Part shown: piece after piece, positions 611-33,368 of the stretch | Layout of the letters: the number at the start of each line of letters is the position of its first letter | Numbering within the stretch: position 1 is the stretch's first letter | From: a virus | Strand: one strand, 5' to 3' | IMG/VR virus record: IMGVR_UViG_3300020000_000049 | Location: 1 to 33,368 of that record | DNA: 33,368 bases | Program-made: the position numbers and the translations under genes | Notes under the pieces: generated by a model | Database searches by the model: none | What the model was told of the DNA's origin: nothing | Seen by the model: only the letters and a program-made list of their open reading frames with translations

Positions 611-624
611 ATAGGTATAAACGC

Positions 625-660
625 AAAAAGACCAACCCAAATCAATGGATCAGTCTTTTT
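625..660 (-). terminator. Terminator-like hairpin directly upstream of the protease gene
   Basis: AAAAAGAC (625-632) pairs with GTCTTTTT (653-660). Read on the minus strand there is extra inner pairing (ATCCA/TGGGT) and the right arm ends in five Ts. It sits 15 bases upstream of the ATG at 610, so it could attenuate entry into the head operon. The rest of 611-821 holds the terminator at 743-770, a weak promoter-like TATTTTTG (minus, 710-717, no well-spaced -33 element) and no gene I could find. Confidence 0.55.
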
Positions 661-742
661 GTAATATCTTGTTAAGGGTAATATGCGTCATCACATACTT
701 TATTTGAAACAAAAATACAACTTTTTGTTAAACAAAATAAAA

Positions 743-821: not shown

Positions 822-1016
822 TCATTTTTCGCTAACTTGAAATACGGTTAGATTCATTGTAGGACTTGTTCCACTAATTTCTTCCTTGTCATCTGCCGTC
901 CTGCATTTAAAATAAGCTTCTTGACTACCATTTGATAATAAACCTTTATCGGTACAAACATACTCTTTGCCGTGAATAATATATGTTTTACCAATTACCA
1001 TGTCGTGTACCGTCAT
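822..1016 (-). CDS. Hypothetical protein, 64 aa
   Basis: Small soluble protein, not recognised. It starts MTVHDMVIGKTYIIHGKEYV. The pattern VIGKTYIIHGKEYVCTDKG suggests a small beta-rich fold. Its ATG lies two bases after the stop of the lipoprotein gene, so the two are probably cotranscribed. It is the last gene before the terminator at 743-770. There are no cysteine pairs or membrane segments to suggest a function. Confidence 0.6.
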   Translation of the reverse strand: MTVHDMVIGKTYIIHGKEYVCTDKGLLSNGSQEAYFKCRTADDKEEISGTSPTMNLTVFQVSEK

Positions 1017-1017
1017 A

Positions 1018-1437
1018 TTATTGAACTATAAAAATCGCCTCTTTTGAAATATACCCATCCTGATACATATTAGCTATAACATTATTGTAATCATCGAAGT
1101 TTATAATGTACTTATAATGTACTCCTGATTCGGCAAAATCCCAAGTAAATACGTTGCCAACTTTCACAAAATCATTATGAACTTCGTTTGTTCCATCTGT
1201 ATAATTAAAAGTGAATTCGTTTTTTGAATTATCCCAAGTGAATGACTTTGTTGTAACGGTAGTATCCCAATCACTCCAAATATTATCTGTTGTAGTTCTT
1301 TGTTTTTCTGAAACGACATTAACAGTAAAATTATTTGAAGTTACTACTTCTGTTTTTTTACTTGTTGATGTTGATGATTCTGGACTGCATCCGATTGCCA
1401 TAACAGACAATAAGGATAATAATAATAGTTTTTTCAT
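1018..1437 (-). CDS. Predicted lipoprotein, 139 aa
   Basis: The N-terminus is a classical lipoprotein signal: MKK, a hydrophobic stretch (LLLLSLLSVMA), then the lipobox AIGC with Cys17. The mature part begins CSPESSTSTSKK, a Ser/Thr-rich linker, then a beta-strand-rich domain with many Trp/Phe/Tyr. Bacteroidota surface lipoproteins often carry an acidic Ser-rich export signal after the Cys; this one has only a single Glu there, so surface exposure is uncertain. It lies in a small unit between tail and head genes. Known phage lipoproteins often block superinfection at the envelope, and that role is plausible here but inferred only from topology. Confidence 0.75.
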   Translation of the reverse strand: MKKLLLLSLLSVMAIGCSPESSTSTSKKTEVVTSNNFTVNVVSEKQRTTTDNIWSDWDTTVTTKSFTWDNSKNEFTFNYTDGTNEVHNDFVKVGNVFTWDFAESGVHYKYIINFDDYNNVIANMYQDGYISKEAIFIVQ

Positions 1438-1456: not shown

Positions 1457-1771
1457 TTAGTAAAAATCTTTTAAATCTTCTTCTGTTGCCTCTTTTATAA
1501 ATTCCAAAAAATCATCATGTACCCAAGCCCCACTTGTTTTTTTTAAACCTACTATAACATAAGTTGAATCAATACTATTGCTTCTTATATTTATGCTCAC
1601 TTCATCAATTATAACCACTTCAAAAGTGTTAGGATTATCTTCGGCATAAGTTCCGTTTAAATTCCATTTCCACTTTTTGCAAATATCGAACTTTTTAAAC
1701 TTAGGATTAAAATTTAATAATGCTATGTTTTTTTCTAGTTTGTTTTTACTCATACAAAAATCTACTTCCAT
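1457..1771 (-). CDS. Hypothetical protein, 104 aa
   Basis: Not recognised. Mixed alpha/beta protein with a Lys-rich N-terminus (MSKNKLEKNIALLNFNPKFK) and an acidic C-terminus ending EEDLKDFY. An alternative start at 1753 would remove six residues. It is the first gene after the structured RNA and terminator at 1784-1863. I see no consensus promoter between that terminator and the gene, so it may depend on readthrough. It appears cotranscribed with the lipoprotein gene. Confidence 0.6.
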   Translation of the reverse strand: MEVDFCMSKNKLEKNIALLNFNPKFKKFDICKKWKWNLNGTYAEDNPNTFEVVIIDEVSINIRSNSIDSTYVIVGLKKTSGAWVHDDFLEFIKEATEEDLKDFY

Positions 1772-1783
1772 AATTTATAAATT

Positions 1784-1863
1784 AAAAAAGACCCGAAGAA
1801 AGTGAGTCGGCACTTCCTAAGAGTCTTAATAATGTTTTCAACTTATTGGCTTCCGACTTCCAA
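1784..1863 (-). ncRNA. Short structured RNA with two complementary hairpin loops, ending in a terminator
   Basis: Downstream of the promoter at 1868-1897, the minus strand would give an RNA of about 80 nt. Hairpin A is TTATTGG/CCAATAA (1860-1866 with 1843-1849) around a 10-base loop containing AGTCGG. The terminator hairpin has an outer 7-bp stem (1821-1827 with 1788-1794) and an inner 8-bp stem (1811-1818 with 1797-1804) around the loop CCGACT. The two loops are perfect 6-base complements and could form a kissing interaction. Two positions pair only as G-U on this strand, which supports minus-strand transcription. The exact 5' end is estimated, and a start well inside 1866 would shorten hairpin A. 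No protein-coding frame fits. Confidence 0.6.
1788..1827 (-). terminator. Rho-independent terminator downstream of the tape measure gene
   Basis: A two-part hairpin (7 bp plus 8 bp, including two G-U pairs when read on the minus strand) with loop CCGACT, followed by six Ts (1784-1789). It ends both the tail operon and the short RNA that starts near 1863. Confidence 0.88.
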
Positions 1864-1867
1864 TAAT

Positions 1868-1897
1868 CAAATATAATTATTTTTCTTTAACCTCCAA
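1868..1897 (-). promoter_or_regulatory. Bacteroidota-type promoter inside the 3' end of the tape measure gene
   Basis: Minus strand TTG (1897-1895), exactly 19 bases, then TATATTTG (1875-1868). The spacing equals that of the promoters at 20660-20689 and 22060-22089. The -33 element lies in the last codons of the tape measure gene. Only the short RNA and its terminator lie immediately downstream. Confidence 0.65.
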
Positions 1898-16414: not shown

Positions 16415-17128
16415 TTAAAGTATTGGTGATGCCATTGTGTAAATCGGTTTTGGTTTTGATTCGGGAGCTACTGACAACTCATCATTCCAACATTTTCCAT
16501 TTAACCATGTCAAAGGATTTTTACGAAATTGGATATCAGGAGTTGATTTTATATAAATCGGCAAAGCTTCAAAAATCTTTTCAATATCTTTTTTTGCCAA
16601 TTTATTAAATTTGATTTCGCATTTTACTTTTTCAACTTTCTTATCATAGGCATTCCAAAATGATTCAAACAACGGATTCTCTTTTGTTTCTTTTTCTAAA
16701 AGAATATCATTAACAGTAACACTTACAGTATCAGTTACAGCGATGTTTGCGATTATTTGCGATTCTTTTTGTCGCAAATAATCGCTATGCGACTGTTTGC
16801 GATTATTTGCGATGTTTTCAGCGTCTTCAATAGTTAATTCATTAGCAATTACTTTGTCGTATAAATCACTATTCCAACGTTTTAAATTCCCTAGCCTACC
16901 GCTATCGCTCCTGCCGACTTTCTTTTGTTCCCACTTCATCAAATCGCGTTTTAACGATTGTTTTATAGGCGTAAACAATAATTCAGTTAATCTATCTGAT
17001 ACAGGATTAAGATCATTAATATATCTAAAGAAGTGTTTTATAAGTTTTCCAGCTTCTTCATCTGTAAGGTCTTCAAACTGACTAATCCAATCAGCGTAAA
17101 CAACAATTGTATTTTTATTTTCAGCCAT
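16415..17128 (-). CDS. Replication initiator/helicase-loader-like protein, 237 aa
   Basis: The N-terminal ~90 residues (VYADWISQFEDLTDEEAGKL... ) resemble the DUF6291-type domain found at the front of phage replication proteins. The C-terminal ~70 residues (NPLFESFWNAYDKKV ... FRKNPLTWLNGKCWNDE) match the end of phage O-like initiators. Between them lies a low-complexity linker (about 100-150), and the DNA coding it contains the repeats at 16740-16813. This is the layout of lambda O, which binds iterons inside its own gene. The primase-helicase follows after 5 bases. A -7-like box lies upstream at 17252-17259. Confidence 0.75.
   Translation of the reverse strand: MAENKNTIVVYADWISQFEDLTDEEAGKLIKHFFRYINDLNPVSDRLTELLFTPIKQSLKRDLMKWEQKKVGRSDSGRLGNLKRWNSDLYDKVIANELTIEDAENIANNRKQSHSDYLRQKESQIIANIAVTDTVSVTVNDILLEKETKENPLFESFWNAYDKKVEKVKCEIKFNKLAKKDIEKIFEALPIYIKSTPDIQFRKNPLTWLNGKCWNDELSVAPESKPKPIYTMASPIL
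16740..16813. repeat. Iteron-like array, putative replication origin
   Basis: A 19-base direct repeat GTTTGCGATTATTTGCGAT occurs at 16745-16763 and 16795-16813, exactly 50 bases apart. Between them TCGCAAATAATCGC (16772-16785) is the inverted form of its core. Each 19-mer contains two GCGAT units 10 bases (one helical turn) apart, and a further GCGAT starts at 16740. The array lies in the linker region of the initiator gene, as in lambda-type origins. Confidence 0.7.
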
Positions 17129-17251
17129 ATAAAGTTGATTAAATGCAAAAATCCCATCAAGTCGCTAGTAATGTGAGATATAGCTTCCTGATAGGATTTT
17201 GTATAATATTTTCCGGTATGTATCGTAATGTATCTCACCTCATTACAAGAG

Positions 17252-17259
17252 CAAATATA
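17252..17259 (-). promoter_or_regulatory. Possible promoter -7 box for the replication genes
   Basis: Minus strand TATATTTG, 124 bases upstream of the initiator ATG. The -33 region is poor (ATG where TTG is expected). The 17129-17445 gap otherwise holds two terminators (17349-17370, 17420-17441) and no supported gene. Confidence 0.35.
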
Positions 17260-32760: not shown

Positions 32761-33368
32761 TATTTAAGCGTTTCTTTTTTCATTCTGTACTTTTCCAATG
32801 CAGACATATTTTCAATGCCTTTATCAACCATTTCAGGGATCTTTTTAGCTTCGATAACATCAGCTTTCAGTTTCTCAACTTCTGCCGTTAGCTTAACGTT
32901 AGATTCTTTTTCAGCTTCAAAGTCTGCTTTTAGTTTTACCTCAGCTTCTTCGTTAGCCATTTTAGTCGCAGTAGCTTCTGAAAGTTGAGCTTGTAAGTCT
33001 GCAACCTGAGTTTCTAACGCTGCAATTTTAGCTGCTGAATCATCGCCTCCGTTAGCATCTTCTTCTGCTTCTTCTTTGGCATCTTCGATAGAGCTAATCG
33101 CGCCCATATCATCAGTCTCATAAACTTTATTTTCAAAAGTAAATGTTCCGCTAGGCATAGGATTACCATCTTTATCTGTGATGATAGCGCCCAAATCTAA
33201 AGACGTTCCGAAAAATCCGTTTCCGTAGTCTGTCATGTCGGCGAAATTAAAAGTCTCTTTGAACTTTTCAACTGCCATCGCCCAAAGGCTTTTTTTATTC
33301 ATGTCCTCTTTATTAAATGTTACTTGTTTTTGTTCTTCTGGGAATAGTTGCCCTTCGATTGATAAGCC
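32760..33368 (-). CDS. XkdF-like prohead protease/scaffold, C-terminal part (gene crosses the contig junction)
   Basis: This is the rest of the gene that begins at 610, open at the right edge. Met179 at 33302 is an internal residue, not the start. Beyond the protease domain, residues ~240-340 form an acidic, Ala/Glu/Lys-rich coiled coil (for example KIAALETQVADLQAQLSEA), as expected of a scaffolding domain fused to its protease. No separate scaffold gene is visible, which supports the fusion. The stop overlaps the start of the next gene (TAATG). In the 16 bases where the two terminal copies differ, all three changes alter an amino acid. Confidence 0.85.
   Translation of the reverse strand, partial: GLSIEGQLFPEEQKQVTFNKEDMNKKSLWAMAVEKFKETFNFADMTDYGNGFFGTSLDLGAIITDKDGNPMPSGTFTFENKVYETDDMGAISSIEDAKEEAEEDANGGDDSAAKIAALETQVADLQAQLSEATATKMANEEAEVKLKADFEAEKESNVKLTAEVEKLKADVIEAKKIPEMVDKGIENMSALEKYRMKKETLK
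33227..33368. repeat. Terminal redundancy, right copy
   Basis: Right-hand copy of the 142-base terminal overlap, lying inside the protease/scaffold gene. The reading frame runs through it without a stop on the minus strand and continues in register into base 142 of the left copy. Confidence 0.93.

Follow-up and report, generated by a model that had tools for sequence, protein, structure and literature searches.

Conserved phage RNAs with complementary hairpin and terminator loops: candidate attenuating leaders of accessory gene cassettes

Results

A structured RNA element behind the tape measure gene

The window, by which we mean the whole stretch of DNA analysed, is a virus record of 33,368 bases in which Bacteroidetes-type TAnnTTTG promoters are present. 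The nearest relatives of its terminase found by tblastn are those of Cellulophaga and Flavobacterium phages, every one at less than 60% identity. The ends of the record (1-142 and 33227-33368) form a 142-bp direct repeat, 97.9% identical with 3 mismatches; the genome is thus probably close to complete, with circular permutation or terminal redundancy, even though the record is classed as linear.

Between the tape measure gene and the gene for an XkdF-like protease lies a slot occupied by a cassette of three small ORFs, preceded by the element we term RNA A, with a distinct leader, RNA B, at its far end (Table 1). An initial annotation of this DNA had described a TTG-N19-TATATTTG promoter at the very end of the tape measure gene, a 7-bp hairpin displaying AGTCGG and a terminator with the loop CCGACT. 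All of these are present on the minus strand, and the two loops are complementary at 6/6 positions. The promoter overlaps the last codons of the tape measure gene, whose stop is at 1887.

Table 1. Positions of features in the window.
Feature	Position	Strand	Remarks
RNA B	624..720	minus	distinct promoter-hairpin-terminator leader; heads the XkdF-like protease gene
Third cargo ORF	822..1016	minus	64 aa; no Pfam match
Second cargo ORF	1018..1437	minus	139 aa; lipoprotein-like N-terminus; no Pfam match
First cargo ORF	1457..1771	minus	104 aa (98 aa if ATG 1753 is used); begins 12 nt past the T-run; no relatives in IMG/VR, no Pfam match
RNA A	1867-1784	minus	84 nt
Intrinsic terminator of RNA A	1784..1827	minus	AAGACTC...GGGTCTT + T6
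Loop 2 kissing segment	1805..1810	minus	CCGACU (CCGACT)
5' hairpin P1 of RNA A	1843..1866	minus	TTATTGG / AAGTCGGAAG / CCAATAA; 7 bp, loop AAGTCGGAAG
Loop 1 kissing segment	1853..1858	minus	AGUCGG (AGTCGG); invariant in 23/23; perfect complement of loop 2
Bacteroidetes-type promoter	1868..1897	minus	TTG-N19-TATATTTG; TTG 1897-1895, TATATTTG 1875-1868; assigned from sequence
Tape measure gene stop	1887	minus	
Possible second kissing leader	17147..17259	minus	single instance; promoter TATATTTG 17259-17252
Terminator of possible second leader	17200-17147	minus	loop segment TATCTCAC (UAUCUCAC in RNA)
P1 of possible second leader	17248-17223	minus	loop segment GTGAGATA at 17238-17231 (GUGAGAUA in RNA)

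The terminator of RNA A is built of an outer 7-bp stem, a 2x2 internal loop, an upper 8-bp stem, a hexaloop and T6. The 84-nt RNA has an MFE of -22.0 (z -2.71), a stability equalled by 3/200 shuffles, and the plus strand of the region folds worse (-14.8 kcal/mol, z -1.17). Assignment to the minus strand, proposed in the initial annotation from G-U pairs, is borne out by relatives: 23/23 retain a U-G pair in the terminator, and with the family model described below complete copies score 83-107 bits on the RNA A strand as against at most ~26 on the opposite one. RNA A of the window itself scores 105 bits, its sequence being one row of the model.

RNA A belongs to a conserved family

A search pattern with both loops fixed matched 27 IMG/VR contigs, and the full architecture was present in 26. 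When only parts of the terminator were fixed, leaving the hexaloop and the whole 5' hairpin free, 27 viral contigs were recovered, and 27/27 carried both CCGACT and the AAGTCGGAAG hairpin, which is more than chance would give with a pattern that specifies neither. Freeing the terminator loop alone had the same outcome: CCGACT was invariant. In an alignment of 23 members, changes on both sides were found in 8/8 aligned pairs of P1 and 8/15 stem pairs of the terminator, a level of covariation reached in 0/500 shuffles; sliding the pairing partners destroys the signal. A covariance model detected the family, termed A, in 30 viral records, with a single copy in each—IMG/VR records are fragments, and these copy numbers are therefore lower bounds. 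A TAnnTTTG promoter lies no more than 26 nt upstream of the loop in 23/30 members, against a background of 2.1%, and the P1 loop holds invariant nucleotides beyond the paired six (A..AAG). The window has every part of the arrangement: P1, linker, terminator with fully complementary loops, its own promoter directly upstream (TATATTTG at 1875-1868) and a same-strand ATG 12 nt from the T-run, within the 18-nt limit. RNA A is a member of a conserved RNA family, far from a chance assembly, and the earlier proposal of a structured phage RNA with a promoter and loop-loop pairing potential is supported to that extent.

In keeping with the initial annotation, which knew of no matching family, neither Rfam 15 nor the open PMC papers that we searched describe a family corresponding to the kissing-loop leader. 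Neither the window nor ten loci carrying families 1-5 (family 1 being family A) gave an Rfam 15 family at the gathering threshold, and around RNA A the sole match at E<=5 is a chance CRISPR-repeat hit, at 13.4 bits compared with a gathering threshold of 50. The exact family A pattern matched 8 times in GTDB genomes, not above chance expectation and never with the hairpins and terminator, which suggests that the family, at least in exact pattern form, is restricted to viral records. Among cultured phages and plasmids blastn found no convincing family 1 match, and among cultured phages no match to the second family.

Loop pairs are exchanged as matched sets

The family A model picked out a second element in contig L063 whose loops, AUGCAAG and CUUGCAU, are perfect complements. 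A scan for this loop pair yielded 25 members (family 2), each with P1 and terminator, and with a TAnnTTTG/A promoter in place in 23/25; their stems covary too. Further matched pairs, spanning 6-8 bp and represented by one or two sequence types each, were met beyond these two families. The pair CCGCCAAG/CUUGGCGG, of 8 bp, heads an HNH gene. A screen of promoter-headed leaders brought up GUGCAG/CUGCAC ahead of a GIY-YIG gene, GGUCUGA/UCAGACC in two phages, and the window's own GUGAGAUA/UAUCUCAC at 17259-17147. The cultured Flavobacterium phage FCV-1 carries GUAGUGC/GCACUAC, of 7 bp, before an HNH gene, and leaders of this type occur in 65 Flavobacterium phage records. Terminator surroundings in the FCV-1 and L122 leaders are alike (GTAGGGA..CCCGAAA-like), and both loops differ together. 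FCV-1 is the sole clear case among the homing-gene upstream regions inspected in named phages; in Polaribacter phages P12002L/S and Cellulophaga phi19:1 the homing genes examined lack the device.

In the screen, which excluded families 1 and 2 and required a loop complement of at least 6 nt, 5/15 promoter-headed leaders passed (one of them a misparsed family 2 copy); the shuffle mean was ~0.7, and 0/1000 shuffles reached 5. With the promoter requirement removed there was no excess over shuffles, which indicates that complementarity between the loops of two hairpins is mostly noise. Loop-loop duplex energies across seven leaders range from -7 to -13 kcal/mol. Plain MFE folds, which are unable to form kissing pairs, leave both segments wholly unpaired in 2/7 leaders (those of the window RNA A and L122); in the other 5/7 local pairs take up one to four bases of one segment or of both, and kissing would thus have to compete with this weak pairing.

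Loops within each family never vary, and invariant loops within a family by themselves say nothing about pairing. Between families, one complementary loop pair is replaced by another, while stems covary within them, the kind of covariation that the initial annotation had named as a check on its proposal. As far as the sequences go, loop-loop complementarity is kept while loop sequence is exchanged, and families 1 and 2 provide the strongest support.

The window holds a possible second leader of this kind (Table 1), preceding the ATG at 17128 of a 237-aa gene (16415-17128); homologs of this gene elsewhere lack the leader. The segment GTAATG/CATTAC occurs three times, so that an alternative long helix is possible.

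Placement and cargo

In family A the distance from T-run to ATG is 11-18 nt, mostly 13, despite the unrelated genes downstream; for L080-82, three contigs that are nearly identical, the first start codon met past the T-run is a TTG, at 33 nt. In family 2 the distance is 4-6 nt wherever the contig extends that far. Family A cargo includes PAPS reductase-like, HNH and methylase-like proteins, a DEAD helicase (L056) and small unknown ORFs; the helicase and some others are not obviously selfish, and the 98-aa ORF behind RNA A in the window, lacking a Pfam match, was not recognised as a homing endonuclease. Family 2 cargo consists almost wholly of GIY-YIG or NUMOD4-type (NUMOD4-HNH) homing endonucleases, assigned by N-terminal motifs and in one case by Pfam. 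In the leaders of homing genes the start codon lies 3-6 nt after the terminator and no Shine-Dalgarno site is seen; occlusion of the ribosome site by the terminator hairpin is plausible here.

About ten records show a family A leader with one to three small genes oriented against the structural operon, as an insert would be. L126 carries a family A cassette in the same tape measure-XkdF slot as the window, but inverted, and in the related phages L008 and L016 the slot is empty, the tape measure gene leading straight to RNA B and XkdF. Family A elements also precede early genes, in both orientations; the slot behind the tape measure gene is one among several sites for the family.

RNA B and other short elements

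RNA B has a hairpin with the conserved loop UGAAGWUG on a covarying 5-bp stem, 100% of cells being paired and 0/500 shuffles reaching its score; in the window it has no Rfam match. It is carried by L002, L005, L006, L008, L010, L014, L016, L019, L022, L031 (in two copies), L035, L041 and L042 besides the window. We considered it as a kissing leader and rejected this: its hairpin loop finds no consistent complement in the terminator loops, and RNA B is accordingly a separate family.

Three further observations concern short elements in these phages. The sequence AGAAAGGAG, found at minus 794-739 of the window and also in L022, L025, L026, L045, L053 and others, precedes terminators, not start codons: among 28 distinct occurrences a terminator-like hairpin follows within 60 nt in 22/28, and an ATG follows in 3. 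It would presumably match the 16S anti-Shine-Dalgarno end over 9 nt. The mRNAs of the phylum lack Shine-Dalgarno sites (PMC6847099), and the presence of AGAAAGGAG in its phages is therefore odd.

In L062, L063 and L065 the sequence immediately upstream of RNA A resembles a tRNA (D arm GTTTAATGGTAAAAC, T arm GCAAGTTCGACCCTTGC) and directly adjoins the element. A promoter-like site of the TTTG type stands ahead of this tRNA-like sequence, in which ARAGORN called no tRNA. At minus ~24347-24253 of the window, a promoter-like TATATTTG stands right behind the lysozyme gene and is followed by a terminator, possibly a further short RNA.

Discussion

Comparison of sequences establishes the architecture and conservation of these elements, their covarying stems, matched and exchangeable loops, fixed placement and insertion with cassettes. 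With these in mind we propose, at a probability of roughly 0.6, that RNA A, an element of phages with Flavobacteria-like hosts, heads an inserted accessory cassette as its 5' leader and acts as an attenuator in cis. The TAnnTTTG promoter would start the RNA at or near P1; after a short A-rich linker the intrinsic terminator would form, its loop exactly complementing that of P1, and the two hairpins could then lock into an intramolecular kissing complex in solution. Transcription would mostly stop at the U-tract, releasing an RNA of ~80 nt. The start codon of nearly all members comes 3-18 nt later, and no room is left for another promoter between T-run and ATG; the downstream gene should therefore be expressed solely by read-through. 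In the read-through RNA the locked hairpin would sit inside or beside the ribosome landing site. The predicted outcome is low or conditional expression of homing endonucleases, methylase-like proteins, helicase and small unknown ORFs; here we infer the direction in which kissing acts, and any factor that might relieve the lock. Several findings weigh against the proposal: the invariance of loops inside each family, the one or two sequence types behind every loop pair outside families 1 and 2, cargo such as the DEAD helicase of L056, the TTG start of L080-82, and the local pairing that competes for the kissing segments in 5/7 leaders.

The initial annotation had envisaged an independently transcribed small RNA. 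The promoter of its own stands; the free-standing character is not supported, since a terminator placed directly before an ATG in nearly all members makes RNA A look like the 5' leader of the downstream gene. A trans-acting sRNA, in which the terminated ~80-nt RNA is itself the product, its loops pair with another RNA and the genes downstream are passengers, strikes us as rather unlikely. The partner might come from the host or from a competing phage, or it might be a nascent leader belonging to the same family, the last amounting to self-limitation like that of plasmid antisense RNAs. Loops that stay invariant within families while stems diverge, a single family A copy per record with variable cargo, and the presence of a promoter all fit such an RNA, and the invariance in particular, not being demanded by pairing alone, could mean that a trans-acting partner exists. 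Against it stand the same-strand ATG directly behind the terminator in nearly all members of both families, the tie of family 2 to homing endonuclease genes, and the perfect partner that each loop has in the same RNA, partners that are exchanged together between families. The invariant A..AAG of the P1 loop might equally be read as the binding site of a ligand or phage protein which, acting on that loop or on the kissing complex, sets read-through in the manner of antitermination, and kissing loops are common in ligand-binding leaders. We regard such gating as quite improbable: the genes downstream share no pathway, as those under a riboswitch should, and the loops differ wholly between families, which makes a single common binding factor unlikely.

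That the element serves as DNA, as a crossover site for cassette swaps, or as an RNA acting in packaging or assembly (the latter raised in the initial annotation), with folding secondary, seems very improbable indeed. An identical block before many unrelated genes, in both orientations and often adjoining structural genes, is what such a signal might look like, but compensatory double mutations in the stems are needless for DNA homology, and the element also stands before early genes and homing endonucleases, which tells against the packaging or assembly role.

The attenuating leader might, more speculatively, exemplify a general phage control module in which a terminator loop kisses an upstream hairpin and orthogonal matched pairs keep different copies apart. 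Each mobile or accessory gene would then carry its own loop-type lock, open to silencing in trans by RNAs that share its loop type and by no others, and homing endonucleases would fall into incompatibility groups; we consider this extension doubtful. Restraint of free-standing homing endonucleases and of inserted cassettes has so far been studied mainly in T4, and the leader offers a compact, testable RNA device for which the natural matched pairs are compensatory mutants already to hand, with Flavobacterium columnare phage FCV-1 and its relatives as a cultured model. A terminator loop serving as kissing partner was not found in Rfam or the open PMC papers searched, and would be a new design of RNA control.

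The nearest precedents are in T4, where RNA hairpins hold back homing genes and 5' terminators are found in some of them; in mobE and segF intrinsic terminators lie in the 5' end of the coding region, and T4 hairpins sequester the Shine-Dalgarno site and late promoters bypass them (PMC2988022). T4-type homing leaders (I-TevI, segB, mobE; PMC2988022) and kissing leaders have in common phage GIY-YIG/HNH genes, a promoter near the gene and an upstream RNA structure that limits expression, or in the kissing leaders would be expected to. The kissing leaders differ in having two hairpins, a terminator before the ATG and an AT-rich start region, and in being conserved across unrelated genes, beyond homing endonucleases. 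Antisense-controlled attenuators likewise combine a terminator in the 5' leader with loop-loop pairing to another hairpin, but in those a separate antisense RNA provides the kissing partner, whereas here both loops are in one RNA. Kissing hairpins and a terminator also share one leader in riboswitches whose loop-loop contacts precede the terminator, the purine class for example; in the kissing leader the terminator hairpin is itself one kissing partner, and there is neither a multi-helix ligand core nor a shared metabolism. The lambda pR'-6S RNA-tR' unit, which stands at the start of the late structural operon, with Q protein allowing read-through, resembles the kissing leader, as do similar late-operon leaders, in its order of promoter, short RNA, terminator and phage genes. 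Its closer parallel is RNA B; RNA A heads accessory cassettes.
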